From: Acidobacteriota bacterium
Lineage (GTDB): Bacteria > Acidobacteriota > Terriglobia > Terriglobales > Acidobacteriaceae
Assembly (NCBI GenBank): GCA_021778315.1
Contig: JAJYCQ010000004.1
Coordinates: forward strand, 15,004 to 79,003
Length of the DNA: 64,000 nucleotides
Reading direction: 5' to 3'
A program made the translations under genes and the position numbers. Below are positions 21,979 through 40,612 of the stretch, in pieces. The notes under the pieces were generated by a model that saw only the letters and a program-made list of their open reading frames with translations, searched no databases and was not told the origin of the DNA. Position 1 is the stretch's first letter. Each line of letters opens with the position of its first letter.

Positions 21979-22204
21979 GCGTGGAGAGCCGCACTCGCTC
22001 CATTCAATTTGCGGGCAAATCCCCGCGTGTCACAGACCCTTAATGTTCCCGTAACCCCCCGTATATCTCGCTCGGAGAACCTATCGCAAAGCGACCCGAC
22101 GATTTCTCTCGACAACGGAGCACATCTCCCCACCCCAGAGACCGGCAACGGACAAGTACTGTAGCCACAAACGTCGCGTCGCTTCTTCATTAGGAGGCTC
22201 TTCG

Positions 22205-24838: not shown

Positions 24839-24865
24839 CCTCCGCAATCACAACCAGACCGTAAA

Positions 24866-24901
24866 CATGCAGGGCACGGACAACCATCCGTGCCCTGCAT
24901 G
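24866..24901 (+). terminator. Hairpin terminator after the fourth TonB receptor
   Basis: A 15-bp perfect stem (CATGCAGGGCACGGA with its complement) and a 6-base loop are followed by CTTTAACTG, 28 bp after the stop. The T tract is short. Confidence 0.65.
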
Positions 24902-24974
24902 CTTTAACTGACCCGTGCACGTAGCACCACGCAGCGATAATCCGCTATGATTTCATCCCATATCGAGGTTACTC

Positions 24975-26168: not shown

Positions 26169-26193
26169 TCGGCCGGTTCGTTGCCCAACAACA

Positions 26194-26226
26194 GAAGCGT
26201 AGTGATTTCCCTAATCACTACGCTTC
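26194..26226. terminator. Bidirectional terminator overlapping the tyrA 3' end
   Basis: A perfect 14-bp inverted repeat (GAAGCGTAGTGATT and its complement) with a 5-base loop sits between convergent stops. Its right arm (26213-26226) is the last codons of tyrA, and the tyrA TAG is in the loop. T runs are weak on both sides. Confidence 0.65.
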
Positions 26227-27086
26227 GCCCGAAACTTATTCGCCGTCGCAAACTCATCTCGCAGTTCCGGAGTCCGCAGATTCTCGCGCACATGTGCCAG
26301 CCGCTGCTCCAGCGCCGCCACCGTCGCCGCAATCGCCTCCGTATTCGTCATCGCCACATCCCTCCACATGCTGTACGGACTCGCTCCCAACCGCGTAGTC
26401 TCCCGCAGCGCCCGTCCCCCAATCGCCTGCACCGCGGCCATCCCCTCCGCATCCCCCGCGAACTTATCCTCCAATAGCGCGGCCAGCGCAGTCGAAACCA
26501 TCTGCGGCAGATGCGACACCCACGCACACATCTCATCATGCCGCTCCGGCCCAAGATCGAGAACCTCTGCTCCACAAGCAGCAATCAGTGCGCGCCACCG
26601 CTGTTCCAATATCGATGACTCTGCATCGATCGGCGTAAACAACCATGTCGCACCGTCGAACAGCGTCGCCTGTGCCAGCGCAGCTCCACCCGACTCCTTG
26701 CCCGCCATCGGATGTCCCGGCAAAAACCGCGCCGTCCCCTCCCGGTTATAGAGCGTCTTACCAAGCGCCGCGATCTCCTGCTTCGTACTGCCAACATCAG
26801 TCAACAACTGCCGCTCGTTCAGCACCGGAGCAAGCCTCTGCATCCAGTCCAAAATCGGCAGCACCGGCGTCGCCAGCACATACACATCCGCAAGGTCCGG
26901 CTCCATCAATCGTCCAGGCGTGAGCGCTTCATCAATCGCACCCATCTCGAGCGCCGTCGCAAGCTCCGCAGCATTCGTATCCCACCCAAGAATCAGCCCG
27001 CCCTGCAGATCATCCAGCGCCTTCAGAGCGAGCCCCAGCGAGGCACCAATCAAACCCGTGCCAATAATCGCAACGCGCCTGATCAT
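26211..27086 (-). CDS. tyrA: Prephenate dehydrogenase
   Basis: NAD(P)-dependent oxidative decarboxylation of prephenate to 4-hydroxyphenylpyruvate, the committed step to tyrosine; cytoplasmic. The 291-aa protein has the Rossmann motif GTGLIGASLG at 9-18, DVGSTKQEI, LPGHPMAGKESGG (with the conserved His) near residue 125 and ERHDEMCAWVSHLPQ with the family histidines. There is no ACT domain or chorismate-mutase fusion; the mutase is a separate gene in the same operon. Its ATG overlaps the proA stop by four bases (ATGA), so the two are translationally coupled. It is the last gene of the operon. Confidence 0.92.
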   Translation of the reverse strand: MIRRVAIIGTGLIGASLGLALKALDDLQGGLILGWDTNAAELATALEMGAIDEALTPGRLMEPDLADVYVLATPVLPILDWMQRLAPVLNERQLLTDVGSTKQEIAALGKTLYNREGTARFLPGHPMAGKESGGAALAQATLFDGATWLFTPIDAESSILEQRWRALIAACGAEVLDLGPERHDEMCAWVSHLPQMVSTALAALLEDKFAGDAEGMAAVQAIGGRALRETTRLGASPYSMWRDVAMTNTEAIAATVAALEQRLAHVRENLRTPELRDEFATANKFRAKRSD

Positions 27087-28414
27087 CGCGCCTCTCGCTT
27101 ATGCGTAAACGTCCGCGCCTGCTTGCCGCGGTAATCACCAGCCACCTGCCCTCGCCCACGCAGCACATATTTATACGTCGTCAACCCCTCAAGCCCAACC
27201 GGTCCGCGCGCATGAAACTTGCTCGTACTAATCCCGACCTCCGCCCCAAACCCATAGCGGAAACCATCTGCAAATCGTGTGGACACATTGTGGAATACAC
27301 CCGCCGCATCCACCTCCCGAAGAAACCGTTCCGCCGCCTCCGCATCCTCGGTGATAATACTTTCCGTGTGAGAAGATCCATGCGCATGGATATGCTCCAT
27401 CGCATCCTCCAGCGACGCCACCACACCCAGCGACAACGCCAGCTCCCCATACTCCGTATGCCAATCCGCGACGACCTCCACCTCCACCCCACGCAGCAAG
27501 TCGCGCACCGTCGCATCCCCATGTAACGCGACGCCCTTCGCCCTCAGATGCTCCGCCAGCTTCGGCAAAATCTCCGACGCAATCTCCCTGTGCACCAGCA
27601 CCGTCTCCACCGCGTTGCATGCTGCCGGATAGTCCGTCTTCGCGTCCTCAATCACCCGCAGCGCCAGCGCCTCATCTGCACTCTTGTCCACATAGATATG
27701 ACACACGCCCTCCGCGTGTCCCAGCACCGGAATTCGGGTATTGGCCTGCACATATTCCACCAGCGCCTTCGACCCCCGCGGAATCACCATATCCACCAAC
27801 CCCTGCATCCTCAGCAACTCCTGCGCCCGCTCCCGTCCCACCACCAGCGACACCGCATCCGCCGGCAATCCTCGCGCGACCAGCGCCTCGCGCAGAACCC
27901 GCACCAGCACCTCCGCCATGCGCTCCACCTCTTTGCCCGGCTTCAGAATCACCGCATTCCCCGACTTGATCGCCAACGCCGCAATCTGCGTCACCGCATC
28001 CGGCCTCGCCTCGAAGATCACAGCCAGCACGCCCAGGGGCACACTGATCTTCTGCAGATTCAAGCCCTCATCCAACTCAATCGCGTCGAGCTTTCGCCCC
28101 AGCGGATCAGGCAGCGCCGCCACCGACCGCACCTGCTCCACCATCTCCCGCAACTTCGCAGCATCCAGCTTCAGCCGCGCCAACACCGCCGCACTTACGC
28201 CCTCGCTCTCCGCGCAGAAGTCCGCAGAGGACGCCGCACTGACCGCCAACAACTCCGCACTCGCCGCCTCGAGCGCCTTCGCCATCGCCTCCAGCGCAGC
28301 ATTCCGCGCAGCTTCATCCAGCGGAGCCAGCACCCTCGATGCTGCCTTCGCGGCCTCGGCAATCACTCGCGTACTCAGCGAGCTTTCCTGCACAGAGGCT
28401 GCCGCCGTGCTCAT
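27083..28414 (-). CDS. proA: Glutamate-5-semialdehyde dehydrogenase (gamma-glutamyl phosphate reductase)
   Basis: Second step of proline synthesis: NADPH-dependent reduction of gamma-glutamyl phosphate. At 443 aa it is slightly longer than typical because of an Ala/Ser-rich N-terminus. Conserved features are the PLGVLAVIFEARPD segment (126-139), GNAVILKPGKE (152-162) and the catalytic Cys266 in DYPAACNAVE. Both ends overlap neighbours by four bases (ATGA with proB upstream and tyrA downstream), giving tight coupling in an otherwise aromatic operon. Confidence 0.95.
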   Translation of the reverse strand: MSTAAASVQESSLSTRVIAEAAKAASRVLAPLDEAARNAALEAMAKALEAASAELLAVSAASSADFCAESEGVSAAVLARLKLDAAKLREMVEQVRSVAALPDPLGRKLDAIELDEGLNLQKISVPLGVLAVIFEARPDAVTQIAALAIKSGNAVILKPGKEVERMAEVLVRVLREALVARGLPADAVSLVVGRERAQELLRMQGLVDMVIPRGSKALVEYVQANTRIPVLGHAEGVCHIYVDKSADEALALRVIEDAKTDYPAACNAVETVLVHREIASEILPKLAEHLRAKGVALHGDATVRDLLRGVEVEVVADWHTEYGELALSLGVVASLEDAMEHIHAHGSSHTESIITEDAEAAERFLREVDAAGVFHNVSTRFADGFRYGFGAEVGISTSKFHARGPVGLEGLTTYKYVLRGRGQVAGDYRGKQARTFTHKREAR

Positions 28415-29235
28415 CGCGCAGCCCTCTCCAGCACAGGAGCAAAGTGCGTTCCGATCGCCTCACCCGCAACGATCCGCTCCAACACCTGCGGCGTGCGGCC
28501 ATTCGCAATAATCACCTGCTTGCCCGTATGCAGCACAATCCGAGCCGACTCCAGCTTCGAAATCATCCCACCGCGTCCGCGTCCATTGCTGCCCTCTGCA
28601 AGCGCAAGAACGCGATCGTCGATCACATCGACCTTCTCAATCACCTTCGCTCCCGGCTCCGTCGGACTGCGATCGTAAAGCCCATCCACATCCGACAGCA
28701 GCACAAGCATGTCCGCACCAATATGCTTCAACAGCAACGCCGAAAGCTTATCGTTGTCGCCAAAGATTCTCTCGCGCTGGCGTGACTCCGTCGGCCTGTC
28801 CAACTCTATCGTCGACACCGTATCGTTCTCATTCACAATCGGAATCACACCCAGCGTCAGCAGCGCGTCCAACGTTGCGCGAAGATTGGTGTGGCGAGTC
28901 ACATCCCGGAAGTCATCCTCGGTCAACAGCACCTGAGCAATCGGGCAGCCCAGCCGATCGAACGCATCATCGTACAGCGCCATCAGCCTTGATTGCCCGA
29001 TCGCCGCACACGCCTGCACCTGCGCCACAACCGTCGGCCGCTCCCGCAGACCTAGCCGTTCCATCCCCAGGCCAACAGCGCCCGACGACACGACCAGAAC
29101 CTCCATGCCCTGTGCACGCAACGCCGCAATCTGCTCCACCAAACCGCACAGCAGACCTAGCGCCACCTTGCCATCCGGCCGCATGATAACGTTGGTCCCG
29201 AGCTTTACGACAATCCGATGCAGCGTGCGGTGCAC
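28411..29235 (-). CDS. proB: Glutamate 5-kinase (kinase domain only)
   Basis: First step of proline synthesis: ATP-dependent phosphorylation of glutamate. The protein is 274 aa with the amino-acid-kinase fold: VVKLGTNV near the start, VVSSGAVGLG near residue 50, PIVNENDTVS and GDNDKLSALL for nucleotide and substrate binding, and GRGGMISKLESARI. It lacks the C-terminal PUA domain of E. coli ProB, so feedback behaviour may differ. The open frame begins at ATG 29262, inside the upstream gene, but the GTG at 29235 has an excellent AGGAGG eight bases upstream and is preferred. It overlaps proA by four bases. Confidence 0.93.
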   Translation of the reverse strand: MHRTLHRIVVKLGTNVIMRPDGKVALGLLCGLVEQIAALRAQGMEVLVVSSGAVGLGMERLGLRERPTVVAQVQACAAIGQSRLMALYDDAFDRLGCPIAQVLLTEDDFRDVTRHTNLRATLDALLTLGVIPIVNENDTVSTIELDRPTESRQRERIFGDNDKLSALLLKHIGADMLVLLSDVDGLYDRSPTEPGAKVIEKVDVIDDRVLALAEGSNGRGRGGMISKLESARIVLHTGKQVIIANGRTPQVLERIVAGEAIGTHFAPVLERAAR

Positions 29236-29243
29236 AGTGCTCT

Positions 29244-29249
29244 CCTCCT
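29244..29249 (-). promoter_or_regulatory. Shine-Dalgarno deciding the proB GTG start
   Basis: AGGAGG on the minus strand, eight bases before GTG at 29235, in the 19-bp gap after the DAHP synthase stop. The alternative ATG at 29262 lies upstream of this site and has none. Confidence 0.75.
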
Positions 29250-29254
29250 GTTGC

Positions 29255-30298
29255 CTAAGCATGGATTTGCGACACCGCCGGTGCTATCGAGCGATCGACA
29301 ATCGGAGCAAGCTTGCGCAACTTCTCCACCAGCTTCGTCAGTTGGTCCGGGAACAGCGACTGCGCTCCATCCGACATCGCCTTGTCCGGATTCGGATGCA
29401 TCTCCATCAATAGTCCATCCGCTCCCGCAGCAACCGAGGCCAGCGCCATCGGCGGCACCAGGTCGCGCTTGCCCACACCGTGGGACGGATCGCCTAGCAC
29501 CGGCAGATGCGTCAACTTCTTCAGCACCGGAATCGCAGAGACATCATATGTATTCCGCGTGTACGTCTCAAACGTGCGAATGCCGCGCTCGCACAGCATT
29601 AGGTCATAGTTGCCGCCCGACAAAATATACTCCGCGCTCAGCAACACCTCTTCAATTGTCGCCGCAATGCCGCGCTTCAGCAGCACGGGCTTCCGCACGT
29701 GCCCCAACTCGCGCAACAAATTGAAGTTCTGCATGTTGCGTGCTCCAACCTGGAAGCAATCGATGTACGGCAGCATGGGCTCGATCTGCGAGATCTCCAT
29801 CACCTCGGTAATCACCAGCAGCCCAAACTCATCCGCCGCATCGCGCATAATCTTCAAGCCTTCAACGCCCATGCCCTGGAAACTGTACGGCGAGCTCCGC
29901 GGTTTGAACGCGCCGCCCCGCAGAAACTGCGCTCCCGCCATGGCCACCTGTTGCGCGCTCAGGCGAATCTGGTCGCGGCTCTCGACCGAGCACGGCCCCG
30001 CCATGATCACGACCTCATCGCCGCCAACAACCACGCCGTTTGGAAACGTAATCCGCGTGCCCTCGGGCCGGAATCCACGTCCCGCCAGCTTATACGGCGA
30101 CGAAATCCGATACGCCTGGTGTACACCCGGAAGCACCTGAAACTCAGTGACCTCGAAGTGCGCTGGCGTTCCCACGCCCGCAAGAATGGTTTGCACTTCA
30201 CCCGTGGTGCGGTGCACATTGAATCCGAGTTCCACCATTCGCTCGATCACATTCTGGATCTGCTCATCAGTGGCGTGGTCCTGCATAGCGACGATCAT
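29255..30298 (-). CDS. aroF: 3-deoxy-7-phosphoheptulonate (DAHP) synthase, type I-beta with N-terminal ferredoxin-like domain
   Basis: First step of the shikimate pathway, condensing phosphoenolpyruvate with erythrose 4-phosphate. Residues 1-70 form a small ferredoxin-like domain, as in Thermotoga-type enzymes where it mediates Tyr/Phe feedback inhibition. The catalytic barrel follows with [55 protein letters not shown] and [10 protein letters not shown]. The chosen start is the ATG at 30298, which has GAGGA eight bases upstream; a GTG directly before it is the alternative. It sits between chorismate mutase and proB in the operon controlled by the leader attenuator. Confidence 0.93.
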
Positions 30299-30381
30299 CA
30301 CAATATTCCTCTATAGTCCTGCTTCAAATTTGTACTGCCTGGCCGCGCTGCCAATCACCCGACAGCGTACGACTGCAAACC

Positions 30382-30642
30382 TTACTGCTGACGCTGCAAC
30401 GCGCGCATCACATCCATGAGCCGCTCATACACATCCTGAACCTGCGCATCGGACAACGGGCCCGGGTTGATACGCCGCACATGCTCAAACACTGCCTTCT
30501 CGCGTTGCGGCTCATAAATCGGAGCGCTGCTCTGTGCCTTGAGCTGCCCAATCGCAACTGCTGCAGCCGCGCGCTCAGAGAGCAGGCGGACGATCTTTTC
30601 GTCCAGTTCATCAATCTTGTTTCGCCAGTCGGGAATATCCAT
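30382..30642 (-). CDS. Chorismate mutase, AroQ class, monofunctional
   Basis: Converts chorismate to prephenate; cytoplasmic dimer of helices. This 86-aa single-domain protein has the AroQ pattern: WRNKIDELDEKIVRLLSERAAAAVAIG with the two arginines and Asp, then Lys-x-x-x and PIYEPQREKAVFEHV with the active-site Arg/Glu positions. It is not fused to prephenate dehydratase or dehydrogenase. GAGG lies five bases before the ATG. It lies 140 bp after trpA and 83 bp before the DAHP synthase start; type I-beta DAHP synthase and AroQ mutase often interact, which would fit this neighbourhood (inference). Confidence 0.9.
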   Translation of the reverse strand: MDIPDWRNKIDELDEKIVRLLSERAAAAVAIGQLKAQSSAPIYEPQREKAVFEHVRRINPGPLSDAQVQDVYERLMDVMRALQRQQ

Positions 30643-30782
30643 TCAGCCTCTTGCAGCAAGCCCACATCGGCTCGCGAAAGTATCTTGGAATTCGCATTCC
30701 AGTAAGGATCGGTGCGAGCACTCGCATACCGCGTGCTGCGCGATTACAGGCCCGATGTAATGATACGTGTTTACGATCAAAT

Positions 30783-31559
30783 TCATGCAGTTTTTGCTCC
30801 GCCGCACAAGCTGCGAACAAACTCTCCTACTGCCTTCGGAGCCTCCGCCGCCGGAGTCTTCTCGATCAGCGCAACAATCGCACTCCCGACCACAGCCGCA
30901 TCCGCAAACTCTCCAACCGCCCGCACATGCTCCGGCGTAGACACTCCAAAACCCAGCGCCACCGGCAACTTCGTATGCTTGCGAATCCGCTCCACCAGCC
31001 CCTTCGCATCACTCGCCAGCTCCGTCTGCGTCCCCGTAATTCCTACCCGCGAAATCGCGTACACAAACCCCTGCGAGTTCTCCGCAATCGCCTTCAGCCG
31101 AGCATCCGGCGACGTCGGCGCAGCCAGAAACACCGGCGCCAACCCATGCTCATGCATGATCCGCAGATACTCATCCGCCTCTTCAACGATCATGTCTGTG
31201 AGCAGCACCCCATCCGCACCTGCATCCTTGGCCGCCTTCGCAAACGCCTCCATCCCCATCCGCACCACAGGATTCAAATAGCTGAACAAAATAATCCCAG
31301 CCTCAGGCCTAGCCGCACGAATCTCCTTGCAGATCCCCAGGACATCCGAAAGCCGCGTGCCCTTAGCCACTGCGCGCTCGCTCGCACGCTGAATCACCGG
31401 CCCATCCGCCAGCGGATCGCTGAACGGCACGCCCAACTCAATCACATCCGCGCCATTATCAATTGCCGCCAACGCCATCTCGCGCGTAGTCGCCAGATCA
31501 GGATCACCCGCAGTGAAATAAATCACCAGCCCCGGTTTCTTCAAAAAATTAATAGCCAT
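30783..31559 (-). CDS. trpA: Tryptophan synthase alpha chain
   Basis: Cleaves indole-3-glycerol phosphate to indole and glyceraldehyde 3-phosphate in the alpha2-beta2 complex with TrpB. The 258-aa protein shows YFTAGDPDL, DVIELGVPFSDPLADGPVIQRA with the catalytic Glu, VLLTDMIVEEADEY with the conserved Asp, and GFGVSTPEHV for phosphate binding. The frame opens at a TTG eight codons upstream, but the ATG at 31559 gives the family N-terminus (MAINFLKKPG). It follows trpB after 56 bp that contain a degenerate AGCTA-type repeat. Confidence 0.95.
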   Translation of the reverse strand: MAINFLKKPGLVIYFTAGDPDLATTREMALAAIDNGADVIELGVPFSDPLADGPVIQRASERAVAKGTRLSDVLGICKEIRAARPEAGIILFSYLNPVVRMGMEAFAKAAKDAGADGVLLTDMIVEEADEYLRIMHEHGLAPVFLAAPTSPDARLKAIAENSQGFVYAISRVGITGTQTELASDAKGLVERIRKHTKLPVALGFGVSTPEHVRAVGEFADAAVVGSAIVALIEKTPAAEAPKAVGEFVRSLCGGAKTA

Positions 31560-31615
31560 AACGTCTCGACACCAGCGCTGCAAAACGCTCCCAGTCTTTA
31601 GCCAGGAGCTAGAAG

Positions 31616-32869
31616 CTAACGACTAACAGCTGTCTCTCCTCCTAAGTCCATCTCGCGCGTCAAAATCCCAATATCCTTATCCCCGCGCCCGCTCACATTC
31701 ACCACCATGATCTTGTCCTTGCCCATCTTCGGAGCCAGCTTGATTGCCTCAGCAATCGCATGCGCACTCTCCAGCGCCGGAATAATCCCCTCCGTCCGAC
31801 TCAACACCTTCGTCGCATCCAATGCTTCGTCATCTGTGGCCGAGGTATACGTCGCGCGCCCCGAGTCATGCAGCATCGCATGCTCCGGTCCAACGCTCGC
31901 ATAGTCCAGCCCCGCGCTCACCGAGTGCGTCGCCGCCACCTGGCCCGCATCATTCTGCAGCACGTAGCTATACGTCCCCTGCAGCACGCCCGGAACGCCT
32001 CCGCCATTCGGAGCAAACCTCGCCGCATGCTCGCCCAGCGCCGTCCCGCGTCCTCCAGCCTCCACGCCAATCAACGCCACATTCGCATCCGGAATGAACT
32101 CATAGAAAGCTCCAATTGCATTCGATCCCCCACCCACGCAAGCGACAATCACATCCGGCAATCGGCCCTCATGTTCCAGGATCTGCCGCTTCATCTCCTT
32201 CGAAATCACGCGATGAAAATCTCGCACCATCGTCGGATAGGGATGCGATCCCAGCGCGCTCCCCAAAATATAAAAAGTAGTCCGAACATTCGTAACCCAG
32301 TCACGCATCGCCTCGTTGATAGCGTCCTTCAGCGTCGCAGAGCCCGAGTTCACACCCCGCACCTCCGCCCCCAACAGCCGCATTCGAAACACATTCAACT
32401 CCTGCCGCCGCATATCCTCCTCGCCCATGTACACCACGCACTCCAGCCCGAACAGCGCGCACACCGTCGCCGTCGCAACCCCATGCTGCCCCGCGCCGGT
32501 CTCCGCAATGATCCGCTTCTTCCCCATCCGCCGAGCCAGCATCGCCTGCCCCAGCGCGTTATTAATCTTGTGCGCGCCCGTATGCAGCAGGTCTTCACGC
32601 TTCAAATAAATCTTCGCTCCACCCAAGGTCTCGGTCAGCCGCTTCGCAAAATACAACGGCGTCGGACGGCCCACGTAATCCTTCAGCAACCCATCCAACT
32701 CAGCATGAAACGCCGGATCAGCCTGCGCCTCCGCATACGCTGCATCCAGCTCCAACAGCGCCGCCATCAGCGTCTCCGGGACATAGCGCCCGCCGTACGC
32801 GCCAAATCGCCCCGGCGTACTATTCACCGCCACACCCGCCGGCCGAACCATCGTTTCGATCGAACTCAT
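31616..32869 (-). CDS. trpB: Tryptophan synthase beta chain
   Basis: PLP enzyme joining indole and serine to make tryptophan. The 417-aa protein has the PLP lysine at 101 in HTGAHKINN, the glycine-rich phosphate loop [12 protein letters not shown], and [12 protein letters not shown] near the C-terminus. It has the length of the TrpB1 type. GAGGA lies seven bases before the ATG. It is the first structural gene after the aromatic leader attenuator (32937-33082); heptamer repeats fill the gap between terminator hairpin and ribosome site. Confidence 0.96.
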
Positions 32870-32882
32870 CGTCTATCCTCAG

Positions 32883-32929
32883 TCCTAATCCCTAATCTCT
32901 GTTCCAGATATCTAATCCCTGTCTCTAAA
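32883..32929. repeat. Heptamer tandem repeat (CCCTAAT/CCCTGTT family), degenerate, before trpB
   Basis: Consecutive units read TCCTAAT, CCCTAAT, CTCTGTT, CCAGATA, TCTAAT, CCCTGTC, TCTAAAA. It lies between the attenuator terminator and the trpB ribosome-binding site. Confidence 0.7.
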
Positions 32930-32936
32930 ACACGAA

Positions 32937-33082
32937 AGCCGCAACCTTTGAGGTCGCGGCTCGGGGAATCTAGATATCGCAGGCTAACTCTTCAAGGCCG
33001 TGCGATGCTACTCCACCGATGCCGCTACGAAACGCCAGTAGCGGTAGGACGGAGTAAATCGCGGGCTGAAGAAATACTGCAT
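32937..33082 (-). promoter_or_regulatory. Transcription attenuator for trpB-trpA-mutase-DAHP synthase-proBA-tyrA
   Basis: Minus-strand RNA elements in order. Hairpin 1:2 (33022-33044, CCGCTAC-loop-GTAGCGG) overlaps leader codons 13-20. Segment 2 (33016-33025, GCGGCATCGG) can instead pair with segment 3 (32956-32966, CCCCGAGCCGC) as 9 bp with one bulged A, enclosing a further 9-bp hairpin (32976-33006). Segment 3 is also the 5' arm of the terminator hairpin 3:4 (32937-32961, 9 bp with one mismatch), followed by TTCGTGTTTT. The pairings are mutually exclusive, as in Trp/Phe attenuators: stalling at Tyr/Trp/Phe codons would free segment 2 and allow read-through. Pairing was done by eye. Confidence 0.75.
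33008..33082 (-). CDS. Aromatic leader peptide of the trpB operon attenuator (24 aa)
   Basis: A small ORF of 24 codons ending in TAG. Eight of its first 18 codons are aromatic: Tyr3, Phe4, Phe5, Phe9, Tyr13, Tyr15, Trp16, Phe18. AAGGTGG lies about five bases before the ATG, and the ORF begins ten bases after the stop of the phosphatase gene. Codons 13-20 lie inside the first hairpin of the attenuator, where a stalled ribosome would act. The peptide itself probably has no function. Unlike the E. coli trp or pheA leaders it mixes all three aromatic residues, which fits an operon serving Trp, Phe and Tyr. Confidence 0.8.
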   Translation of the reverse strand: MQYFFSPRFTPSYRYWRFVAASVE

Positions 33083-33092
33083 GCGTTCCACC

Positions 33093-33749
33093 TTACACCC
33101 AGCGCCGAGCATCTGCAAGCATTTCATCGCCCACCAATCGCCATCCCTTTCCATCAAACTTCAACGTCATCCTCTCCGTATTCAGCACCTTGAACGCCTC
33201 ATCTATCTCACGGAATGTCCCCATCTTCTGCTCATCGCTCCACTCCGGATGGTTCAAATCATGCCGCAGCGCTTGCATAAAATGTCCATGCGTGAACAGC
33301 AGCACCGGCCCGTCCACCTCCATCCTCTGGAGCCTCAGCAGCGTCTCCCGCGCCCTTCCCAGCAACTCCCCAAAGCTCTCCGCCGTGCCCCCCTTGCGGT
33401 GCACCGGGTCAGCAACTCGCCAAAATCGCTCCACCTCCTCCAGCTCAAGCTCCGGCATTGACCCATCCCAGTTCGCCATATCCCAGTAGGTAAACTCGTG
33501 GATCGGCCACGTCTCCACCGGCACATCAGGAAACCGCGCGATCGTCGGCTCGGCCGTCTGCCGCGCTCGCAGAAACGGCGACATCAGAATCCTGCCTGGA
33601 ACGAAGTCCCACTGCTCCGCCAGGCTCCGCGCCTGCGCCCAACCCAACTCCGTCAGTGGAATCTCCGCGAAGTCTCCCTTCCAGAGCCCGACATTCGCCG
33701 CGCTCTGGCCATGTCGAATCAACATCGCCTCAATCGTCTTTGTACTCAC
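33093..33749 (-). CDS. Histidine phosphatase (phosphoglycerate-mutase-like)
   Basis: A 218-aa cytoplasmic histidine phosphatase. The phospho-acceptor motif LIRHGQS is near residue 10, a conserved Arg follows in SPFLRARQTAE, and the second His is in LLFTHGHFMQAL. Substrate unknown. It lies between trpF and the aromatic leader, 24 bp after the trpF... gene boundary on the upstream side and ten bases before the leader peptide start, so it is likely cotranscribed. The open frame begins with GTG at 33749, which has poor ribosome-site spacing, so the exact start is uncertain. A direct role in aromatic synthesis is not evident. Confidence 0.85.
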   Translation of the reverse strand: MSTKTIEAMLIRHGQSAANVGLWKGDFAEIPLTELGWAQARSLAEQWDFVPGRILMSPFLRARQTAEPTIARFPDVPVETWPIHEFTYWDMANWDGSMPELELEEVERFWRVADPVHRKGGTAESFGELLGRARETLLRLQRMEVDGPVLLFTHGHFMQALRHDLNHPEWSDEQKMGTFREIDEAFKVLNTERMTLKFDGKGWRLVGDEMLADARRWV

Positions 33750-33773
33750 ACCTCTAGTCTATCGCCCACAACG

Positions 33774-34481
33774 TTATGCGCCGCGTCGCTGCCGCTTCAG
33801 CAACCTCGCAGCCTCGATAAAATCCCGCATCTTCACCGGGTCCTTCTTACCAGGAGCAGCCTCCACACCACTCGCCACATCCACTCCCCACGGCCTCAAC
33901 ATCTCGATCGCCGTCGCCACATTCAACGCGTTCAATCCTCCTGCAAGGATCACCCGCGGCCGCGGCTCACGCACCCCCATCGCCCGCTCCGCAATCTCTC
34001 CCACATGGGCCCAGTCGAACGCCACCCCGAGCCCGCCCGACGCCCCCGACTTCGCCGCATCAATCAGCACCGCCCACACCGCACCCTCATCGAAAACACC
34101 GCGTAGCGTCTGCTCAAATTGCGCGTCAGCCTCCGCCCTATCCGTCGCATCCACCGCATACGCCACCGTCTGGATGATATTCAGATCCCCACCAAACTTC
34201 GCCGATAATGCCCGCACCAGCGACGCATCGAAAGACCCATGCAACTGCGCCACCGTCAGTCCCGCGCTAACGACCACGTCCTCAATCTCCACCGCATCGG
34301 CGAGGTCAAACACACCCACCTTCTCCACGCCAACCGGCAGCCTCACAACAATCTCAGCAACTTCCTCAGCCGTCACTTGCCGCTTGCTTTTGGCAAACAC
34401 AAACCCCACAGCATCGGCTCCCAACTCCGCCGCCAACCACGCGTCATCGAGATTCGTATTGGCACAGATCTTGATGAACAT
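33774..34481 (-). CDS. trpF: Phosphoribosylanthranilate isomerase
   Basis: Amadori rearrangement of phosphoribosylanthranilate in tryptophan synthesis. A 235-aa TIM barrel with the N-terminal FIKICANTNLDDA (Cys near residue 6), GFVFAKSKRQV, VAQLHGSFD, an Asp in AVLIDAAKSGASGGLG, and the phosphate-binding LAGGLNALNV. The DVASGVEAAPGKKD segment near the C-terminus is diagnostic. It starts five bases after the trpC stop. The two enzymes, fused in E. coli, are separate but adjacent here. Confidence 0.95.
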   Translation of the reverse strand: MFIKICANTNLDDAWLAAELGADAVGFVFAKSKRQVTAEEVAEIVVRLPVGVEKVGVFDLADAVEIEDVVVSAGLTVAQLHGSFDASLVRALSAKFGGDLNIIQTVAYAVDATDRAEADAQFEQTLRGVFDEGAVWAVLIDAAKSGASGGLGVAFDWAHVGEIAERAMGVREPRPRVILAGGLNALNVATAIEMLRPWGVDVASGVEAAPGKKDPVKMRDFIEAARLLKRQRRGA

Positions 34482-34486
34482 TCGCT

Positions 34487-35299
34487 CTACTTCGCCTCAC
34501 CCAATAACTGCGCGAGAGCCCCGCCCGGGTGCGACTGCCGCATCAGTGACTCACCAATCAGAAACGCCTCATACCCCGCCGCCCGCAGCCGCTGCATATC
34601 CGCCGCCGTATGAATCCCACTCTCCGCAACCCTCACCGCGCTCTTTGGTAGCTTCGCCGCAAGCTCGCAGGCACGCTCCAACGACACCTCAAACGTCCGC
34701 AGATCGCGGCTATTCACGCCCACACACTCGCACTCCAACGCCAGCGCGCGCTCCAACTCCTCCGCATCATGCACTTCGCACAACACATCCAACCCCTGCG
34801 TCTTCGCCGCATCCCGCAGCCTCCGCAACTTCGCATCCGACAGCGCCGCAACGATCAGCAAAATCGCATCTGCACAATTCGCCCGCGCCTCCAGCACCTG
34901 AAACTCATCCACCATGAAATCTTTTCTCAGACACGGAATCCCCACCGCCGCACTCGCCCGTCGCAGATTTTCCAGCGACCCCTGAAAGAATTTTTCATCC
35001 GTCAATACCGACAGCACCGCAGCCCCACCCGCCTCCAACTGCGCCGCAATCTCCGCCGCATCAAACTCCGCGCGAATCAACCCCTTCGACGGCGAAGCCT
35101 TCTTCAGCTCCGCAATAATCGCTGGCCCTGCGAGTGCCTTGGCCCGCAGCGCCCGGGCAAATCCTCGCGGCTCATGCGCCGCCGCCGTCCGCTCCATTGC
35201 CCGCAAATCCGCGCCAGCCTTCCGCTCCGCCACCACCCCACGCGTATGCGCAAGAATCTCCGCCAGATACATCGTCCGTTCCGTCGTCACAGTCGCCAT
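34487..35299 (-). CDS. trpC: Indole-3-glycerol phosphate synthase
   Basis: Ring closure of CdRP to indole-3-glycerol phosphate. A TIM barrel with IIAELKKASPSKG (catalytic Lys), LSVLTDEKFFQGSLENL, LRKDFMVDEFQV, GVNSRDLRTFEV, VAESGIHTAADM and EAFLIGESLMR. The start is uncertain. The frame opens at ATG 35353 with the best ribosome site (GGAAGGGAG), but that adds a hydrophobic stretch absent from the family. ATG 35299 or 35272 give family-like N-termini; 35299 is used. It follows acnA by less than 80 bp, so read-through from acnA is possible. Confidence 0.93.
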   Translation of the reverse strand: MATVTTERTMYLAEILAHTRGVVAERKAGADLRAMERTAAAHEPRGFARALRAKALAGPAIIAELKKASPSKGLIRAEFDAAEIAAQLEAGGAAVLSVLTDEKFFQGSLENLRRASAAVGIPCLRKDFMVDEFQVLEARANCADAILLIVAALSDAKLRRLRDAAKTQGLDVLCEVHDAEELERALALECECVGVNSRDLRTFEVSLERACELAAKLPKSAVRVAESGIHTAADMQRLRAAGYEAFLIGESLMRQSHPGGALAQLLGEAK

Positions 35300-35376
35300 T
35301 CCCTTCCATGCTACGGCAGAAAGAAATAGCGAGCCCACCATCAGACTCGCCATTTGCTCCCTTCCGTCTTGAACCT

Positions 35377-38286
35377 TTACGCCTTCCCAGCCAACTGCCG
35401 CAAAACATACTGCAGAATCCCGCCATGCTGGTAGTACAGAATCTCCTGCGGCGTATCGATTCGCACCGTCACAGGAAACTCCTTCTTCGTCCCATCCGCC
35501 GCAGTCGCAACGACCAGCAAGTTCTTGCCCGCCTCAAACTTCGAGTCGAGCATCGCCTTCAACTCGCCAACCTTCGCGCCCAGCGTGAACGTCTCCTCGC
35601 CCGTCAGACCATGCGATTCCACGCTCTCGCCCGCCTCAAACTGCAGGGGCAAAATCCCCATCCCGACCAGGTTCGACCGGTGAATCCGCTCATAACTCTC
35701 CGCGATCACAAACCGAATCCCCAGCAAACACGGGCCCTTTGCAGCCCAGTCGCGCGACGACCCAGACCCATACTCCTTGCCCGCAAGAATCGCCAGCGGC
35801 GTTCCGCGTTTCGCATACTCCACGCTCGCGTCATAGATCGACATCCCCGTACCCTCAGGCAGCAACCGCGTCACGCCGCCCTCCGTACCCGGTGCCAACT
35901 TGTTCCGCAGCCGCACATTCGCGAACGTCCCGCGAACCATCACCTCATGATTTCCGCGCCGCGAACCATACGAATTAAAATCGCTCGGCTTCACGCCATG
36001 ATCGGTCAAATACTTCCCCGCAGGCCCATTCAGCTTGATCGAACCCGCCGGAGAAATATGATCCGTCGTCACCGAATCACCCAGCACCGCAAGCACCCGC
36101 GCATCCACAATATCCTTCACGGCCGCCGGTGTAGCAGGCATGCCATCGAAGTACGGAGCCTTCCGAATATAGGTCGAATCCGGCTCCCATCCATACGTCT
36201 CCCCGCTCGGAAACTTCAAGTTCTGCCAGTTCGCATCGCCATCGCTCACCGTCGCATACTGCTTCCGGAACATCGTCGAATCGATACAGCTCGCCACCGT
36301 ATCCGCAACCTCTTTCTGCGACGGCCAGATGTCCCGCAGATACACCGACTGCCCATCCTTGCCCTTGCCCAACGGCTGCTTCTCAAAGTCATGCGAGATG
36401 TGTCCAGCCAGCGCATACGCCACGACAAGCGGAGGGCTCATCAGATAATTCGCCCGCACTTCCGGCGAAATCCGCCCCTCAAAATTCCTATTGCCCGACA
36501 ACACGCTCACAGCAACCAGCCCATGCTCTTCAATCGCCTTCGACACATCCGTCGGCAGCGGCCCCGAGTTCCCAATGCACGTCGTGCATCCATACCCCAC
36601 CACCTGGAATCGCAGCGCATCCAGATACTGTAGCAACCCCGCGCGCGTGTAGTAATCCGTCACCACGCGCGATCCCGGAGCCAGAGACGTCTTCACCCAC
36701 GGCGGCGTCCTCAGCCCAGCCTCAACCGCCTTCTTCGCCAGCAATCCCGCCGCCACCATCACGTAAGGATTGCTCGTATTCGTGCAGCTCGTAATGGCCG
36801 CAATCACAATCGATCCATCCACAAGATACTTCTCCGGATTCACCCCGAACCGAGCCTCCACCGAATGCATCAGCTCCGCCTTCGACGTCTCCGTCGTCGC
36901 CACGGCAACCGCCTCATGCGTCGTCGGCGTAATCGTCACAATCGCCGGAGCCACAGGCGACGCCGCGCCCACCGAGCTCGCAATATCGCCAGTCGACGAC
37001 GCCGTTCCGCCCTCACCCTCCCAACGCACCATCTGCCGCACCGCATTCTTGTTCGCATTCGGTCCCTGCAACGCCGGCAACTGTTGCGCAAAACTCTCCG
37101 GAGTCTTCGACAGCAGCACCCGATCCTGCGGCCGCTTCGGCCCCGCCACGCTCGGCTCCACCGTCCCCAGATCCAGCGACAGCGTCGCGCTATACTCCGC
37201 CTCCGGAGCGCCCGCTGTATGGAATAATCCCTGCGCGCGGTAGTACGCCTCGACCAGCGCCACCTGCTCATCCGTGCGCCCCGTCAGACGCAGATACTTC
37301 AGCGTCTCCGCGTCCACCGGAAAAATCCCGCACGTCGCTCCATACTCCGGAGCCATGTTCGCAATCGTCGCGCGATCCGCCAGCGGAAGCTCGCTGATTC
37401 CCGGCCCATAGAACTCCACAAACTTGCCGACAACGCCCAGCTTGCGCAGCATCTCCACCACCGTAAGAACCAGGTCCGTCGCCGTAGTCCCTTCCTTCAA
37501 CTTCCCTTCCAGCCGGAACCCAACCACCTGCGGCACCAGCATGCTCACCGGCTGCCCCAGCATCGCAGCCTCTGCCTCAATGCCGCCAACGCCCCATCCC
37601 AGCACGCCCAAACCGTTGATCATTGTCGTATGCGAATCCGTCCCCACCAGCGTGTCCGGGTACGCAGTAACGCTGCCGTCCTCTTCCGTCTTCGTGAACG
37701 TCACTCGTGCCAGATATTCCAGATTCACCTGGTGACAAATTCCCATCCCCGGTGGCACCGCCGAAAAATTACGAAACGCCGTCTGTCCCCATTTCAGAAA
37801 CGCATACCGCTCGCGATTCCGAGTAAACTCCAGCGCCGCATTCAGGTCATACGCATTCGCGGTGCCATACTCATCCACCTGCACCGAGTGGTCAATCACC
37901 AACTCCGCCGGCACCAGCGGATTAATCTTCTCAATATCCTCCGGGCCTCCGCCCAGGCCCTTCATCGCATCGCGCATTGCCGCCAGATCCACCACCGCGG
38001 GCACACCCGTAAAGTCCTGCATCAGCACCCGCGCCGGCATATACGCAATCTCGCGCGACGGCTCGGCCTTCGGGTCCCAATTCGCCAGAAAGCGAATATC
38101 ATCCGCCGTCACCGTCTTGCCGTCCTCGCACCGCAGCAGGTTCTCCAACAAAATCCGCAGCGAATACGGCAGCCGCGCGAGGTTCACGCCCTCGAGCGCG
38201 CTCAGTTTGAAGTAGTTCACTGTCTGCTCGCCGCTCTTCAGCGTGGCAGTTGCATGAAAGCTATCGGGGTGCGTGGTCTTCGGCAT
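35377..38286 (-). CDS. acnA: Aconitate hydratase (AcnA/IRP1 type)
   Basis: TCA-cycle isomerisation of citrate to isocitrate with a [4Fe-4S] cluster; cytoplasmic. Cluster ligands are Cys501 (ITSCTNTSNP), Cys567 and Cys570 (CTTCIGNSGP). Other family segments are QDFTGVPAVVDLAAMRD, YPDTLVGTDSHTTMINGLGVLGWGVGGIEAEA and KEYGSGSSRDWAAKGP. At 969 aa it is longer than usual (about 890-910); most of the excess is an Ala/Ser/Thr/Val-rich insert at about 423-466, before the swivel to the cluster-binding part. AGGAG lies ten bases before the ATG. Confidence 0.96.
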   Translation of the reverse strand: MPKTTHPDSFHATATLKSGEQTVNYFKLSALEGVNLARLPYSLRILLENLLRCEDGKTVTADDIRFLANWDPKAEPSREIAYMPARVLMQDFTGVPAVVDLAAMRDAMKGLGGGPEDIEKINPLVPAELVIDHSVQVDEYGTANAYDLNAALEFTRNRERYAFLKWGQTAFRNFSAVPPGMGICHQVNLEYLARVTFTKTEEDGSVTAYPDTLVGTDSHTTMINGLGVLGWGVGGIEAEAAMLGQPVSMLVPQVVGFRLEGKLKEGTTATDLVLTVVEMLRKLGVVGKFVEFYGPGISELPLADRATIANMAPEYGATCGIFPVDAETLKYLRLTGRTDEQVALVEAYYRAQGLFHTAGAPEAEYSATLSLDLGTVEPSVAGPKRPQDRVLLSKTPESFAQQLPALQGPNANKNAVRQMVRWEGEGGTASSTGDIASSVGAASPVAPAIVTITPTTHEAVAVATTETSKAELMHSVEARFGVNPEKYLVDGSIVIAAITSCTNTSNPYVMVAAGLLAKKAVEAGLRTPPWVKTSLAPGSRVVTDYYTRAGLLQYLDALRFQVVGYGCTTCIGNSGPLPTDVSKAIEEHGLVAVSVLSGNRNFEGRISPEVRANYLMSPPLVVAYALAGHISHDFEKQPLGKGKDGQSVYLRDIWPSQKEVADTVASCIDSTMFRKQYATVSDGDANWQNLKFPSGETYGWEPDSTYIRKAPYFDGMPATPAAVKDIVDARVLAVLGDSVTTDHISPAGSIKLNGPAGKYLTDHGVKPSDFNSYGSRRGNHEVMVRGTFANVRLRNKLAPGTEGGVTRLLPEGTGMSIYDASVEYAKRGTPLAILAGKEYGSGSSRDWAAKGPCLLGIRFVIAESYERIHRSNLVGMGILPLQFEAGESVESHGLTGEETFTLGAKVGELKAMLDSKFEAGKNLLVVATAADGTKKEFPVTVRIDTPQEILYYQHGGILQYVLRQLAGKA

Positions 38287-38686
38287 GGCGTATCTTCTCC
38301 TGTTTGGCTGGGAGCATTTTCAGTGGTGCAGTATCGCAATGCGACACCGCGCGCTTCAATTATGTCGTGCAGAGATAAGCATAGTCAGCCAGAACGGCCA
38401 CGGTCGCGGCGGCCACGCCGAAACCGCTTCGCCCCTGGCGAGCGGATCGCGCGAGAAGATCGCAATGGCGAAGCGCAGCTCAGCATGGTTCAATTTTACG
38501 CTCACCAAAGCCTGGGCTGCCCGCATCCAGAGCTCAATCTGCCACCCCAAAGCGCACGTCGAAGGCCCAAACGTCGCCGACCACTCGTCCTCAATCCGGC
38601 ATCTCATATCCATCAAGACAATTACGCTGAACAACTATTTGAGGCCTAAGGCGTTTGAATGAGAGAACACGGAGTGTTGAACCATC
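38287..38686. other. 400-bp divergent intergenic region without a recognisable gene
   Basis: It separates acnA (minus) from the repeat-rich lipoprotein (plus). I see one plausible sigma-70-like promoter for acnA, listed separately, and GGAG twelve bases before the lipoprotein ATG. Short open frames here have no supporting signal. Confidence 0.5.
38359..38388 (-). promoter_or_regulatory. Candidate promoter of acnA
   Basis: On the minus strand, CTGACT (38383-38388) and CATAAT (38359-38364) are separated by 18 bases, 4/6 and 5/6 matches to the sigma-70 consensus. It would give a leader of roughly 65 bases. Confidence 0.4.
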
Positions 38687-40540
38687 ATGAAAGCCACTAC
38701 CTTATCAAGGCGGACACGCAATCAAAATCAACGGACGGCGCATCTCGCGCACGCTCTGGGTATGGCCCTCGTCGCGGCCGTCCTTGTCTTTTGGGTCGCA
38801 GGCTGTAAAAGCAGCTCTGGAACAGCACCGGTCATCAACACTGCCGATAGCAACGCAACTGACCCAGCAACAGCTAACTCGGTGATGGGTTCTGTGTCGA
38901 ACCCTGCGCAGCCGCCGCCCACACGGGTCCTCGACCAGAGCTCCTCGTTTCAGCCCACCCAGCAGAGCCAGTCGTATTCTCAATCGCCCGCCCCCATCTA
39001 TCGTCACGCCAACGACCCAGGTAACGGCAACGATCCCAACTACAACAACGACCAGAACTACAATAACAACCCAAATTACGATAACGGCCAAAACTACAAC
39101 AATGGCCAGAACTACAACAATAGCCAGAATTACAACAATGGCCAGAATTACAACGATCAGAGCGACTACAACCAGGGCGACGATGATGACCAGCCCACCA
39201 TGTATGCCGATCAACCGCCCCCGCCGCTCCCTCTATACGAGCAGCCCCCACCACCCGAGCCAGATTACCTCTGGACCCCCGGCTACTGGAGCTATAACCA
39301 GTACAACGGTGGCTACTACTGGGTTCCCGGCGTCTGGTGCCCCCCGCCTTACTACGGCGCTCTCTGGACACCGCCCTACTGGGGCTTCTCCCTCGGTCGC
39401 TTTGGATTCCACATCGGCTACTGGGGCCCGCACGTCGGCTACTACGGCGGTGTCGATTACGGTTACGGCTACGTCGGCTCCGGCTTTTATGGCGGCTACT
39501 GGCAGGGCGACAACTTCCAGTACAACCGTGCTGTAACGAATATCAACAGCAACAACACCAACATCACGAACGTCTACAACCGCACTGTCGTGGTCAATAA
39601 CGTGACGTATAACGGCGTCCCCCAGAACACCGTCAGCTATAACGGCGGCCCCGGTGGACTCAGCGTGCGGCCGCAGCGCAGCGAGATCGTTGCGATGCAC
39701 GAATATCACACCCCTCCAGTGGCTGCCCAGGTTCAGGTAGTCCATGCGGCTGCTCAGAACAAGGAGCAGTTCTTCAACCAGAATCACGGTCGTCCCGTCC
39801 AGACCGTGATTCCGCGCCCCGCCATCGCGGTCCAGCCGATCGCCCAACCACCCGCTCGCGTCGCTCCAATCATTCAACAGCGTAACCAGCTCGTGCAAAA
39901 ATCCATCGCGCCCCAGCAGCAAGCTCAACCGCTGCAACAGCGTCCTCAATTCACGATCCAGAGCCGTCCTCAACCAACTCAACAGCAGCAACAGCAGCAA
40001 CAGCAGCAACAACGCCAACCCACCCTACAGCAACGTCCTCAACCCACGATCCAGAACCATCCTCAACCAACTCAACAACAGCAACAACAGTATCCTCAAT
40101 CCGCACCGCAACAGCAGCGCCAACAAGCGCAGCAGCAGCAAGCCCAGCAACAACAGCGCCAACAAGCGCAGCAACAGCAGGCCCAACAACAGCAGCGCCA
40201 ACAAGCGCAGCAGCAACAAGCCCAACAACAACAGCGCCAACAAGCGCAGCAACAGCAGGCCCAACAACAGCAGCGCCAACAAGTGCAACAGCAGCGCCAA
40301 CAAGTGCAACAGCAGCGCCAACAAGCGCAGCAGCAGCAAGCCCAGCAACAACAGCGCCAACAAGCGCAGCAGCAACAAGCCCAACAACAGCAGCGCCAAC
40401 AAGCGCAGCAACAGCAAGCCCAACAACAGCAGCGCCAACAAGCGCAGCAGCAAGCTCAACAGCAGCGCCAACAGCAACAGCAGCGCCAGCAACCCGTTCC
40501 TCGGCCTGCACCGAAGCCGGATCCCAACCGCCCACAATAG
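38687..40540 (+). CDS. Repeat-rich lipoprotein with aromatic/Gly surface domain and Gln-rich C-terminal tail
   Basis: A 617-aa envelope protein of unknown function. A lipobox ends at the Cys in WVAGCKSS (residue about 40). Residues about 110-165 are Asn/Tyr/Gln repeats (NYNNGQ, NYNNSQ, NYNDQ units). Residues about 185-270 match the YXWxxGYW-type repeat: PDYLWTPGYW, GGYYWVPGVW, GALWTPPYW, FHIGYW, FYGGYW. An Asn-rich segment (NSNNTNITNVYNRTVVVNN) follows. From about residue 435 the chain is almost only Gln, with Arg and Ala every few residues, encoded by a 39-bp tandem repeat. The ATG is the first of the frame with a typical export signal. A wall or surface role is inferred. Confidence 0.75.
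   Translation: MKATTLSRRTRNQNQRTAHLAHALGMALVAAVLVFWVAGCKSSSGTAPVINTADSNATDPATANSVMGSVSNPAQPPPTRVLDQSSSFQPTQQSQSYSQSPAPIYRHANDPGNGNDPNYNNDQNYNNNPNYDNGQNYNNGQNYNNSQNYNNGQNYNDQSDYNQGDDDDQPTMYADQPPPPLPLYEQPPPPEPDYLWTPGYWSYNQYNGGYYWVPGVWCPPPYYGALWTPPYWGFSLGRFGFHIGYWGPHVGYYGGVDYGYGYVGSGFYGGYWQGDNFQYNRAVTNINSNNTNITNVYNRTVVVNNVTYNGVPQNTVSYNGGPGGLSVRPQRSEIVAMHEYHTPPVAAQVQVVHAAAQNKEQFFNQNHGRPVQTVIPRPAIAVQPIAQPPARVAPIIQQRNQLVQKSIAPQQQAQPLQQRPQFTIQSRPQPTQQQQQQQQQQQRQPTLQQRPQPTIQNHPQPTQQQQQQYPQSAPQQQRQQAQQQQAQQQQRQQAQQQQAQQQQRQQAQQQQAQQQQRQQAQQQQAQQQQRQQVQQQRQQVQQQRQQAQQQQAQQQQRQQAQQQQAQQQQRQQAQQQQAQQQQRQQAQQQAQQQRQQQQQRQQPVPRPAPKPDPNRPQ
40115..40490 (+). repeat. Tandem array of 39-bp units in the lipoprotein Gln-rich tail
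   Basis: Units starting CAGCGCCAACAAGCGCAG begin at 40115, 40154, 40193 and 40232, then two 21-bp short units at 40271 and 40292, then 39-bp units at 40313, 40352, 40391 and a partial one at 40430. Each codes for RQQAQQQQAQQQQ or a shortened form. Units at 40154 and 40232 look identical, giving a 78-bp higher-order period. All unit lengths are multiples of three. Confidence 0.9.
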
Positions 40541-40562
40541 GCAATACCTCGGCTTCTAGCAA

Positions 40563-40591
40563 GAAGGGCTCGCCGTCACGGCGAGCCCTTC
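40563..40591. terminator. Bidirectional terminator between the lipoprotein and mntH
   Basis: A 13-bp perfect stem (GAAGGGCTCGCCG with its complement) with loop TCA lies between the convergent stops, 22 bp from each. T tracts are short on both strands. Confidence 0.7.
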
Positions 40592-40612
40592 GTTATCCAC
40601 CCCACAAACGCC

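Follow-up and report, generated by a model that had tools for sequence, protein, structure and literature searches.

A conserved, predicted leader-peptide attenuator with Phe, Tyr and Trp codons ahead of aromatic-pathway genes in Acidobacteriota

In the trp and pheA leader-peptide attenuators of Escherichia coli, ribosome stalling at control codons selects which pairing is formed by the leader RNA. Both systems are summarised in PMC11802643, which, together with PMC4046766, also treats the aroR leader of Corynebacterium glutamicum, a Phe-Tyr-Phe leader that attenuates the aroF (DAHP synthase) operon. According to the aroR passages of PMC11802643, this leader responds to Phe, and Tyr availability is without effect despite the Tyr codon, so that a codon present in a leader need not be sensed. 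As for Acidobacteria, it is remarked in PMC2965389 that hardly any of their attenuators have associated functions, and PMC4833913 reports a peak of the leader-gene distance in a passage that names no aromatic genes. In the literature that we searched, which covered few subscription papers, we found no description of an acidobacterial aromatic attenuator or of an aromatic regulon in this phylum; the mechanism suggested below is itself of a known kind.

According to our analysis, the region ahead of trpB in the window (by which we mean the whole 64-kb stretch of DNA that was analysed) very probably encodes a ribosome-mediated transcription attenuator that has its own promoter and belongs to a small aromatic regulon, as far as comparison of sequences can tell. 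On the minus strand, from 33082 to 32927, an ATG ORF is followed by 1:2, 2:3 and 3:4 pairings and a terminator. The leader peptide ORF, MQYFFSPRFTPSYRYWRFVAASVE (33008..33082, minus strand), has 24 codons between the ATG at 33082 and the stop TAG at 33010-33008, with Tyr3, Phe4, Phe5, Phe9, Tyr13, Tyr15, Trp16 and Phe18 as its aromatic residues. Segment 1, CCGCTAC (33038..33044, minus strand), occupies codons 13-15, directly before Trp16, and pairs with segment 2, GTAGCGG (33022..33028, minus strand), the 3' arm of hairpin 1:2, which spans leader codons 13-21; the ORF runs through segment 2. The antiterminator is formed by a 5' arm, GCGGCATCGGTGGA (33012..33025, segment 2 of 2:3), and a 3' arm, TTCCCCGAGCCGC (32956..32968, segment 3 of 2:3), both on the minus strand, GCGGC-a-TCGG pairing with CCGA-GCCGC over 9 bp, for which duplex prediction gives 12 pairs. 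The 3:4 hairpin, AGCCGCGACCT-CAA-AGGTTGCGGCT with a T-rich tail (32927..32961, minus strand), has by its sequence the build of an intrinsic terminator at the end of the leader, the T-tract being interrupted in the window (TTTCGTGTTTT). Since these segments are shared, 1:2, 2:3 and 3:4 are mutually exclusive. The initial annotation had described the aromatic ORF, the hairpin over the second half of the leader, the 9-bp alternative pairing and the terminator in the same terms, and we confirm these observations, whereas the interpretation that it attached to them is supported in part.

The attenuator fold has a z-score of -4.83, and a fold as stable was found in 0 of 200 shuffles. Terminator-like sites as such are not enriched here, the one that was detected in the 3-kb region not exceeding the 2.3 expected from shuffles. 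The 64-kb window has 701 ATG ORFs with lengths of 10-45 codons, of which ten have at least four aromatics in seven residues, and an aromatic ORF with a terminator-like hairpin nearby occurs at two places, namely the leader ORF and a Trp-rich ORF at 46434 whose terminator-like hairpin has a poor tail. A search with all 4227 Rfam models gave no match at E <= 1 in window positions 22000-42000.

The first gene downstream of the attenuator is trpB (31616..32869), followed on the same minus strand by trpA (30783..31583, PF00290), a type II chorismate mutase gene (30382..30642, PF01817), a DAHP synthase gene (29255..30301; PF00793, PF18152), an amino acid kinase gene (28411..29262, PF00696) which overlaps the DAHP synthase gene and which we take, from its context, to be proB, an aldehyde dehydrogenase family gene (27083..28414, PF00171) that is presumably proA on the same grounds, and tyrA for prephenate dehydrogenase (26211..27086; PF02153, PF20463). 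Genes overlap all along from DAHP synthase to tyrA, and, as the proB- and proA-like genes (27083-29262) overlap those of DAHP synthase and tyrA, proline biosynthesis would share the transcript of the aromatic operon. A proB gene after DAHP synthase was also seen at loci L001, L003 and L005. Upstream of the leader, and co-directional with it, are trpC, trpF and a histidine phosphatase family gene (33093-33749), which lies between trpF and the leader and whose end holds the predicted promoter of the latter. Four Granulicella genomes and one acidobacterial MAG, all of them named relatives, have the same order trpC, trpF, trpB, trpA, chorismate mutase, DAHP synthase, and a search of these five 10.7-kb loci for the phosphatase gave no homologue; this gene is not part of the system, and its presence in the window is probably due to a local insertion.

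Protein similarity, used alone, led to 34 trpB loci, and 26 of these have the leader, 25 in full and one (L018, in G002) partly masked by N, so that the conservation in relatives on which the initial annotation had made itself dependent does exist. Five of the 34 came from the named relatives, reached by TrpF similarity, and 29 from among the 30 best TrpB matches in a search that matched 191 of 200 family genomes; the loci represent the closest relatives, an uneven sample. Eight loci have no leader, and in seven of them the end of trpF can be read by eye just before trpB. The covariance model R1, built from the alignment of the 26 leaders (A1), matches 205 of 398 family genomes at E <= 0.01, and at least two matches are present in 88 of the 205 (counted from the table); with the strict filters applied, 193 of 398 gave no match at this threshold. 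When 12 family genomes, eight of them known to be without a trpB leader, were searched again, the best match was no better than E 0.36. A wider model, R2, matches 46 of 396 genomes of a phylum sample, and all those with a match better than 1e-7 also belonged to the family sample; the calibration of the covariance models was short.

For an enlarged alignment, 93 sources were taken, of which 34 were the window or 33 trpB loci and 59 were chosen by R1 match; eight gave no match, and each of the resulting 85 aligned copies has an ATG ORF. Thirteen copies that were too similar or masked were dropped before the promoter test (72 left), and three more, in which the anchor string is absent, before the segment tests (69 left), all of these being related sequences and hence not independent. 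That we deal with a chance ORF beside an ordinary terminator closing a trpCF-phosphatase unit is barely conceivable. Terminators after upstream genes are common indeed, and the upstream genes are co-directional, but such an origin does not agree with an ORF, a promoter-like pair and alternative pairings that are kept across lineages and again at aroK and DAHP synthase loci, nor with the fact that the trpB loci had been selected by protein and not by the model.

The element, at first described for trpB, does stand there but is not confined to it, the same leader being present before aroK, DAHP synthase and chorismate mutase genes. The nearest downstream reference gene of the 85 copies is trpB in 47, aroK (shikimate kinase) in 26, DAHP synthase in nine and chorismate mutase in three, in which DAHP synthase comes next; the target, always an aromatic-pathway gene, starts at most 144 nt past the end of the model in 85 of 85. 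All 20 second-copy loci that were fetched proved to be aroK copies, and both shikimate kinase and the AI-2E/PerM family gene after aroK were identified by Pfam on examples (PF01594, a transporter). This transporter gene follows aroK in many of the aroK leader loci (L078-L097 and similar) and is perhaps part of the same unit. Two leaders, L155 and L157, stand before chorismate mutase, as judged from the inspected translation. From 20 loci inspected by eye 13 look real, and seven (L145, L146, L148-L152) were rejected as false-looking. Ten of the genomes in the DAHP synthase search have a trpB-type leader, and in all ten there is a single match (E <= 1e-30), located 2.5-2.9 kb downstream of the leader and on its strand.

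Among the loci at which R2 matched weakly, L139-L144 and L147, all in genomes not drawn in the family sample, have aromatic leaders ahead of genes matching DAHP synthase or chorismate mutase. Forty DAHP synthase upstream regions were also fetched without the model; we picked them by hand, according to rank and N-terminal coverage, from genomes outside the draw of the family sample, which may still be family members. Seven of the 40 combine an aromatic leader with a terminator-like hairpin, 228-1484 nt ahead of where the scanned stretch ends, whereas the opposite strand gave 0 of 40 and mononucleotide shuffles 0.5%; among these finds, the L180 hairpin and the L174 peptide are doubtful. Leaders rich in Phe/Tyr or Tyr/Trp, with terminator-like hairpins, were seen upstream of DAHP synthase or chorismate mutase genes at nine loci of genomes not drawn in the family sample (L139, L142, L143, L144, L177, L179, L182, L187, L197), which suggests that aromatic attenuators may be widespread in Acidobacteriota. 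At 24 loci of PF00425 (trpE/pabB-type) and prephenate dehydratase genes in eight genomes, with the overlapping piece L215 omitted, the leader model found no match at E <= 1. When the initial 1520 nt of 25 such loci were scanned for the pattern, a stretch reaching about 1.5 kb before the domain match and thus less before the gene start, short ORFs near hairpins turned up in 11. These ORFs, among them MFVSWSFS (L222) and a WYYF ORF (L217), appeared unconvincing by eye and were set aside.

Covariation was counted in two alignments. In A1, which was not fitted to a structure, 14 cells changed on both sides of a pair versus 6.3 in shuffles, and none of 500 shuffles had as many; both-side changes affect five pairs, a number that 44 of 500 shuffles reach. 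In the fitted alignment A2 there are 65 both-side cells versus 23.3 in shuffles, a count that is biased towards the model structure because A2 was fitted to it. Cognate arms outpair arms swapped within the target class for 1:2, 2:3 and 3:4, with 0 of 2000 shuffles doing as well for each (69 copies). For 2:3 this effect stems from the aroK and DAHP synthase/chorismate mutase classes; in the trpB class, where the pairing is nearly invariant, cognate arms have no advantage (-17.09 vs -17.10), and a fixed-register count detected no covariation in 2:3.

A predicted -35 element, TTGCAG (33113..33118, minus strand), lies inside the end of the phosphatase gene, and a predicted -10 element, TAAGGT (33090..33095, minus strand), follows after a 17-nt spacer, 7 nt before the leader ATG, overlapping the phosphatase stop codon and the string AAGGTGG. 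This string (33094-33088) had been taken for the ribosome site of the leader; it is present in the window, but as a site it is not conserved and it overlaps the conserved -10-like element. Of 72 non-redundant copies, 64 have the pair TTG-17/18-TAnnnT with its end 6-12 nt upstream of the ATG (most often 10), while it was seen in 1.0% of shuffles and at 14 of the 6564 remaining ATGs of these loci, the shuffles in the promoter and segment-duplex tests being mononucleotide; TG stands directly before the -10 in at least 50 of the 64. Eight of the 72 have no such signature, six of them belonging to the nine DAHP-synthase copies. With the usual distance of 7 nt between -10 and transcription start, the RNA would be predicted to begin about 0-6 nt before the ATG. 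Pairing to the anti-Shine-Dalgarno sequence below -5 kcal/mol was found in 24% of leaders vs 28% of shuffles, and in 69% of 71 downstream gene starts. According to PMC3160421, TAnnnT about 10-12 bp before the start codon without an SD signal marks leaderless (TA-led) genes, which average 13.3% in three acidobacterial genomes, and the 64 copies mentioned above show this arrangement. The promoter-like pair close to the ATG and the lack of a conserved ribosome site suggest that the leader ORF is probably leaderless, or nearly so, with a promoter of its own, and such a promoter would probably also serve trpB and the downstream genes, apart from that of trpCF. The separate control of this group of genes by a mixed aromatic leader with a 1:2:3:4 attenuator, predicted from the window alone, finds support in conservation, covariation and codon placement.

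All 85 leader ORFs contain Phe and Tyr, and 82 contain Trp; the three copies without it (L109-L111) are located ahead of chorismate mutase-DAHP synthase. The conserved codons can be written as F-x-[FY]-R-Y-W, and at 0, 1, 3 and 5 codons before the Trp position the aromatic share is 91%, 97%, 72% and 83% (Trp, Tyr, Phe/Tyr and Phe, respectively; 69 copies). We modelled stalling with a ribosome reaching 11 nt from the first base of the A-site codon and only the downstream RNA folded. A modelled stall at any of those four codons gives P(2:3) of about 0.97, while this probability is 0.00 with the ribosome at the stop codon and 0.33 if no ribosome is present (69 copies). Directly after Trp there is an aromatic codon in 51% of copies, yet a modelled stall on it gives 0.01. 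Over the stretch that opens 8 nt ahead of the core of segment 2 and extends to 21 nt beyond its start, the aromatic share does not exceed 0.07. Aromatic codons have an odds ratio of 7.4 for the permissive zone, in related sequences that are not independent. With a reach of 8 nt the codon after Trp joins the permissive zone, and with 14 nt the Trp codon is lost (0.01) while the Tyr codon is kept (0.98), from which it follows that the placement of Tyr and Phe is robust and that of Trp is not, Trp sensing hinging on the assumed footprint. In the model, a stall at the control codons frees segment 2 and a ribosome at the stop covers it, in a footprint-dependent manner as regards Trp. In the trpB-leader lineage L038, L042 and L044, RYG replaces RYW, the hairpin is different and a Trp codon is kept further upstream. 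Codon-position statistics are no proof of translation, as third positions before the stem are not more variable (entropy 0.97 vs 1.02 and 1.08 for first and second); the length from the ATG to segment 2 is a multiple of three in 61 of 69 copies, the spacer to segment 3 is spread 28/20/21, and there is no third-position signal.

Which amino acids count can be weighed from the same data. It is unlikely, in our opinion, that the system is an attenuator for tryptophan only, with the conserved Trp as the control codon and Phe and Tyr incidental. Most leaders do have Trp at the key position (34 of 37 for trpB, 19 of 21 for aroK), and trpBA is the first target, but the aromatic codons one, three and five positions before Trp fall within the same stall window, and with the 14-nt footprint they stay there while Trp does not; moreover, three leaders do without Trp, DAHP synthase, aroK and chorismate mutase are not Trp-specific, and the PF00425 (trpE/pabB-type) loci of the eight genomes gave no leader-model match. 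The converse possibility, a Phe/Tyr attenuator with incidental Trp that would be a relative of the DAHP-synthase leaders found elsewhere in the phylum, seems rather unlikely to us: it draws on the Phe/Tyr runs before DAHP synthase or chorismate mutase at L139, L142, L143 and L144 (none in the family sample), on the seven aromatic leaders in 40 regions fetched without the model and on the Trp codon falling outside the stall window of a longer footprint, but, as seen by eye, a Trp codon is kept in the loop of the trpB-type hairpin though the bases after it vary.

TnaC is a nascent arrest peptide that senses a free amino acid in the ribosome, and one may ask if the nascent F-x-[FY]-R-Y-W would act similarly upon a free aromatic amino acid. 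The peptide is conserved including the Arg two positions before Trp (35 of 37 leaders of the trpB class), but this Arg codon belongs to the 1:2 stem and is replaced by Cys in six of 21 aroK leaders, the Trp position is taken by Tyr, His, Phe, Cys or Gly in some leaders, and the more distant leaders are plain Phe/Tyr runs. It is the aromatic codons that are kept, not one peptide, and no conserved residues beyond the sensed codons were found of the sort that a TnaC-like mechanism would have; we regard such an arrest peptide as very unlikely.

The ribosome-mediated attenuator that we prefer could work as follows. RNA polymerase would start at the leader ATG or a few bases from it, and a ribosome would load at the RNA 5' end without a Shine-Dalgarno site, in a leaderless mode of translation. 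If charged tRNA for Phe, Tyr or Trp is short, the ribosome would wait on the F-x-[FY]-R-Y-W codons at segment 1, leaving segment 2 free to pair with segment 3, which would prevent the terminator and allow transcription of trpB-trpA-chorismate mutase-DAHP synthase-(proBA-tyrA). When aromatic amino acids are ample, the ribosome would reach the stop codon and cover segment 2, and 3:4 would terminate transcription. Together with its counterparts at aroK and, in other lineages, at DAHP synthase or chorismate mutase genes, this switch would make up a small aromatic regulon. Termination, the response to amino acids, and the choice among the three we infer from pairing and codon placement. The recurrence of this switch before aromatic genes in related soil bacteria suggests that one RNA switch probably senses aromatic amino acids. 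We may tentatively go further, with somewhat less than even confidence, and propose a sensor for any of the three, which a shortage of charged tRNA-Phe, tRNA-Tyr or tRNA-Trp would each open and which, located at two loci in many genomes (the trpB-chorismate mutase-DAHP synthase operon and aroK), would replace separate attenuators in setting how much flux enters the aromatic pathway as a whole, its RNA having no 5' untranslated region and the first ribosome loading at the 5' end while the polymerase is still in the leader.

If so, trpBA, chorismate mutase, DAHP synthase and shikimate kinase would be tied to one signal in a conserved attenuator regulon, open to testing, that would govern the aromatic pathway in a major soil phylum. 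A leader of this kind, with its start on or close to its own ATG and perhaps reading three amino acids, also offers a case for studying the timing of attenuation where a ribosome binding site is lacking.

With E. coli trp and pheA the acidobacterial leader shares the control-codon ORF, the mutually exclusive 1:2, 2:3 and 3:4 pairings, the intrinsic terminator and the biosynthetic genes behind it; it differs in having Phe, Tyr and mostly Trp codons together, where the E. coli leaders serve one amino acid each, and in its ORF running through segment 2, the lack of Shine-Dalgarno excess and the lack of an Rfam match. Like aroR of C. glutamicum it is an aromatic leader peptide at a DAHP synthase operon, but aroR belongs to Actinobacteria and no Trp codon is mentioned in the passages devoted to it, whereas the acidobacterial copies stand at trpB, aroK, DAHP synthase and chorismate mutase. 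The predicted uORFC-13-1 before aroF in Acholeplasma, as presented in the corresponding part of PMC8632094, likewise combines a Phe uORF, a promoter, a terminator and a DAHP synthase target, differing in its phylum, in having an RBS, in containing Phe only and in its 24 representatives. In Sinorhizobium meliloti, according to the peTrpL/rnTrpL sections of PMC7298713, the 5' end of the attenuator RNA coincides with the leader ATG and the peptide is leaderless, as we predict here, but this is a Trp leader before trpE(G) and has functions in trans. Judging by the title of a cited paper, the ilvBNC leader of C. glutamicum is also reported to be formed without a ribosome binding site, in a system for branched-chain amino acids. 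Single features of the acidobacterial element have thus precedents in the Phe-Tyr-Phe leader of aroR, the leaderless peTrpL and the Phe uORF before aroF in Acholeplasma; what appears unusual is that a single leader has codons of three aromatic amino acids, that members of one leader family stand at several loci and that, as the promoter position predicts, the 5' UTR is missing.
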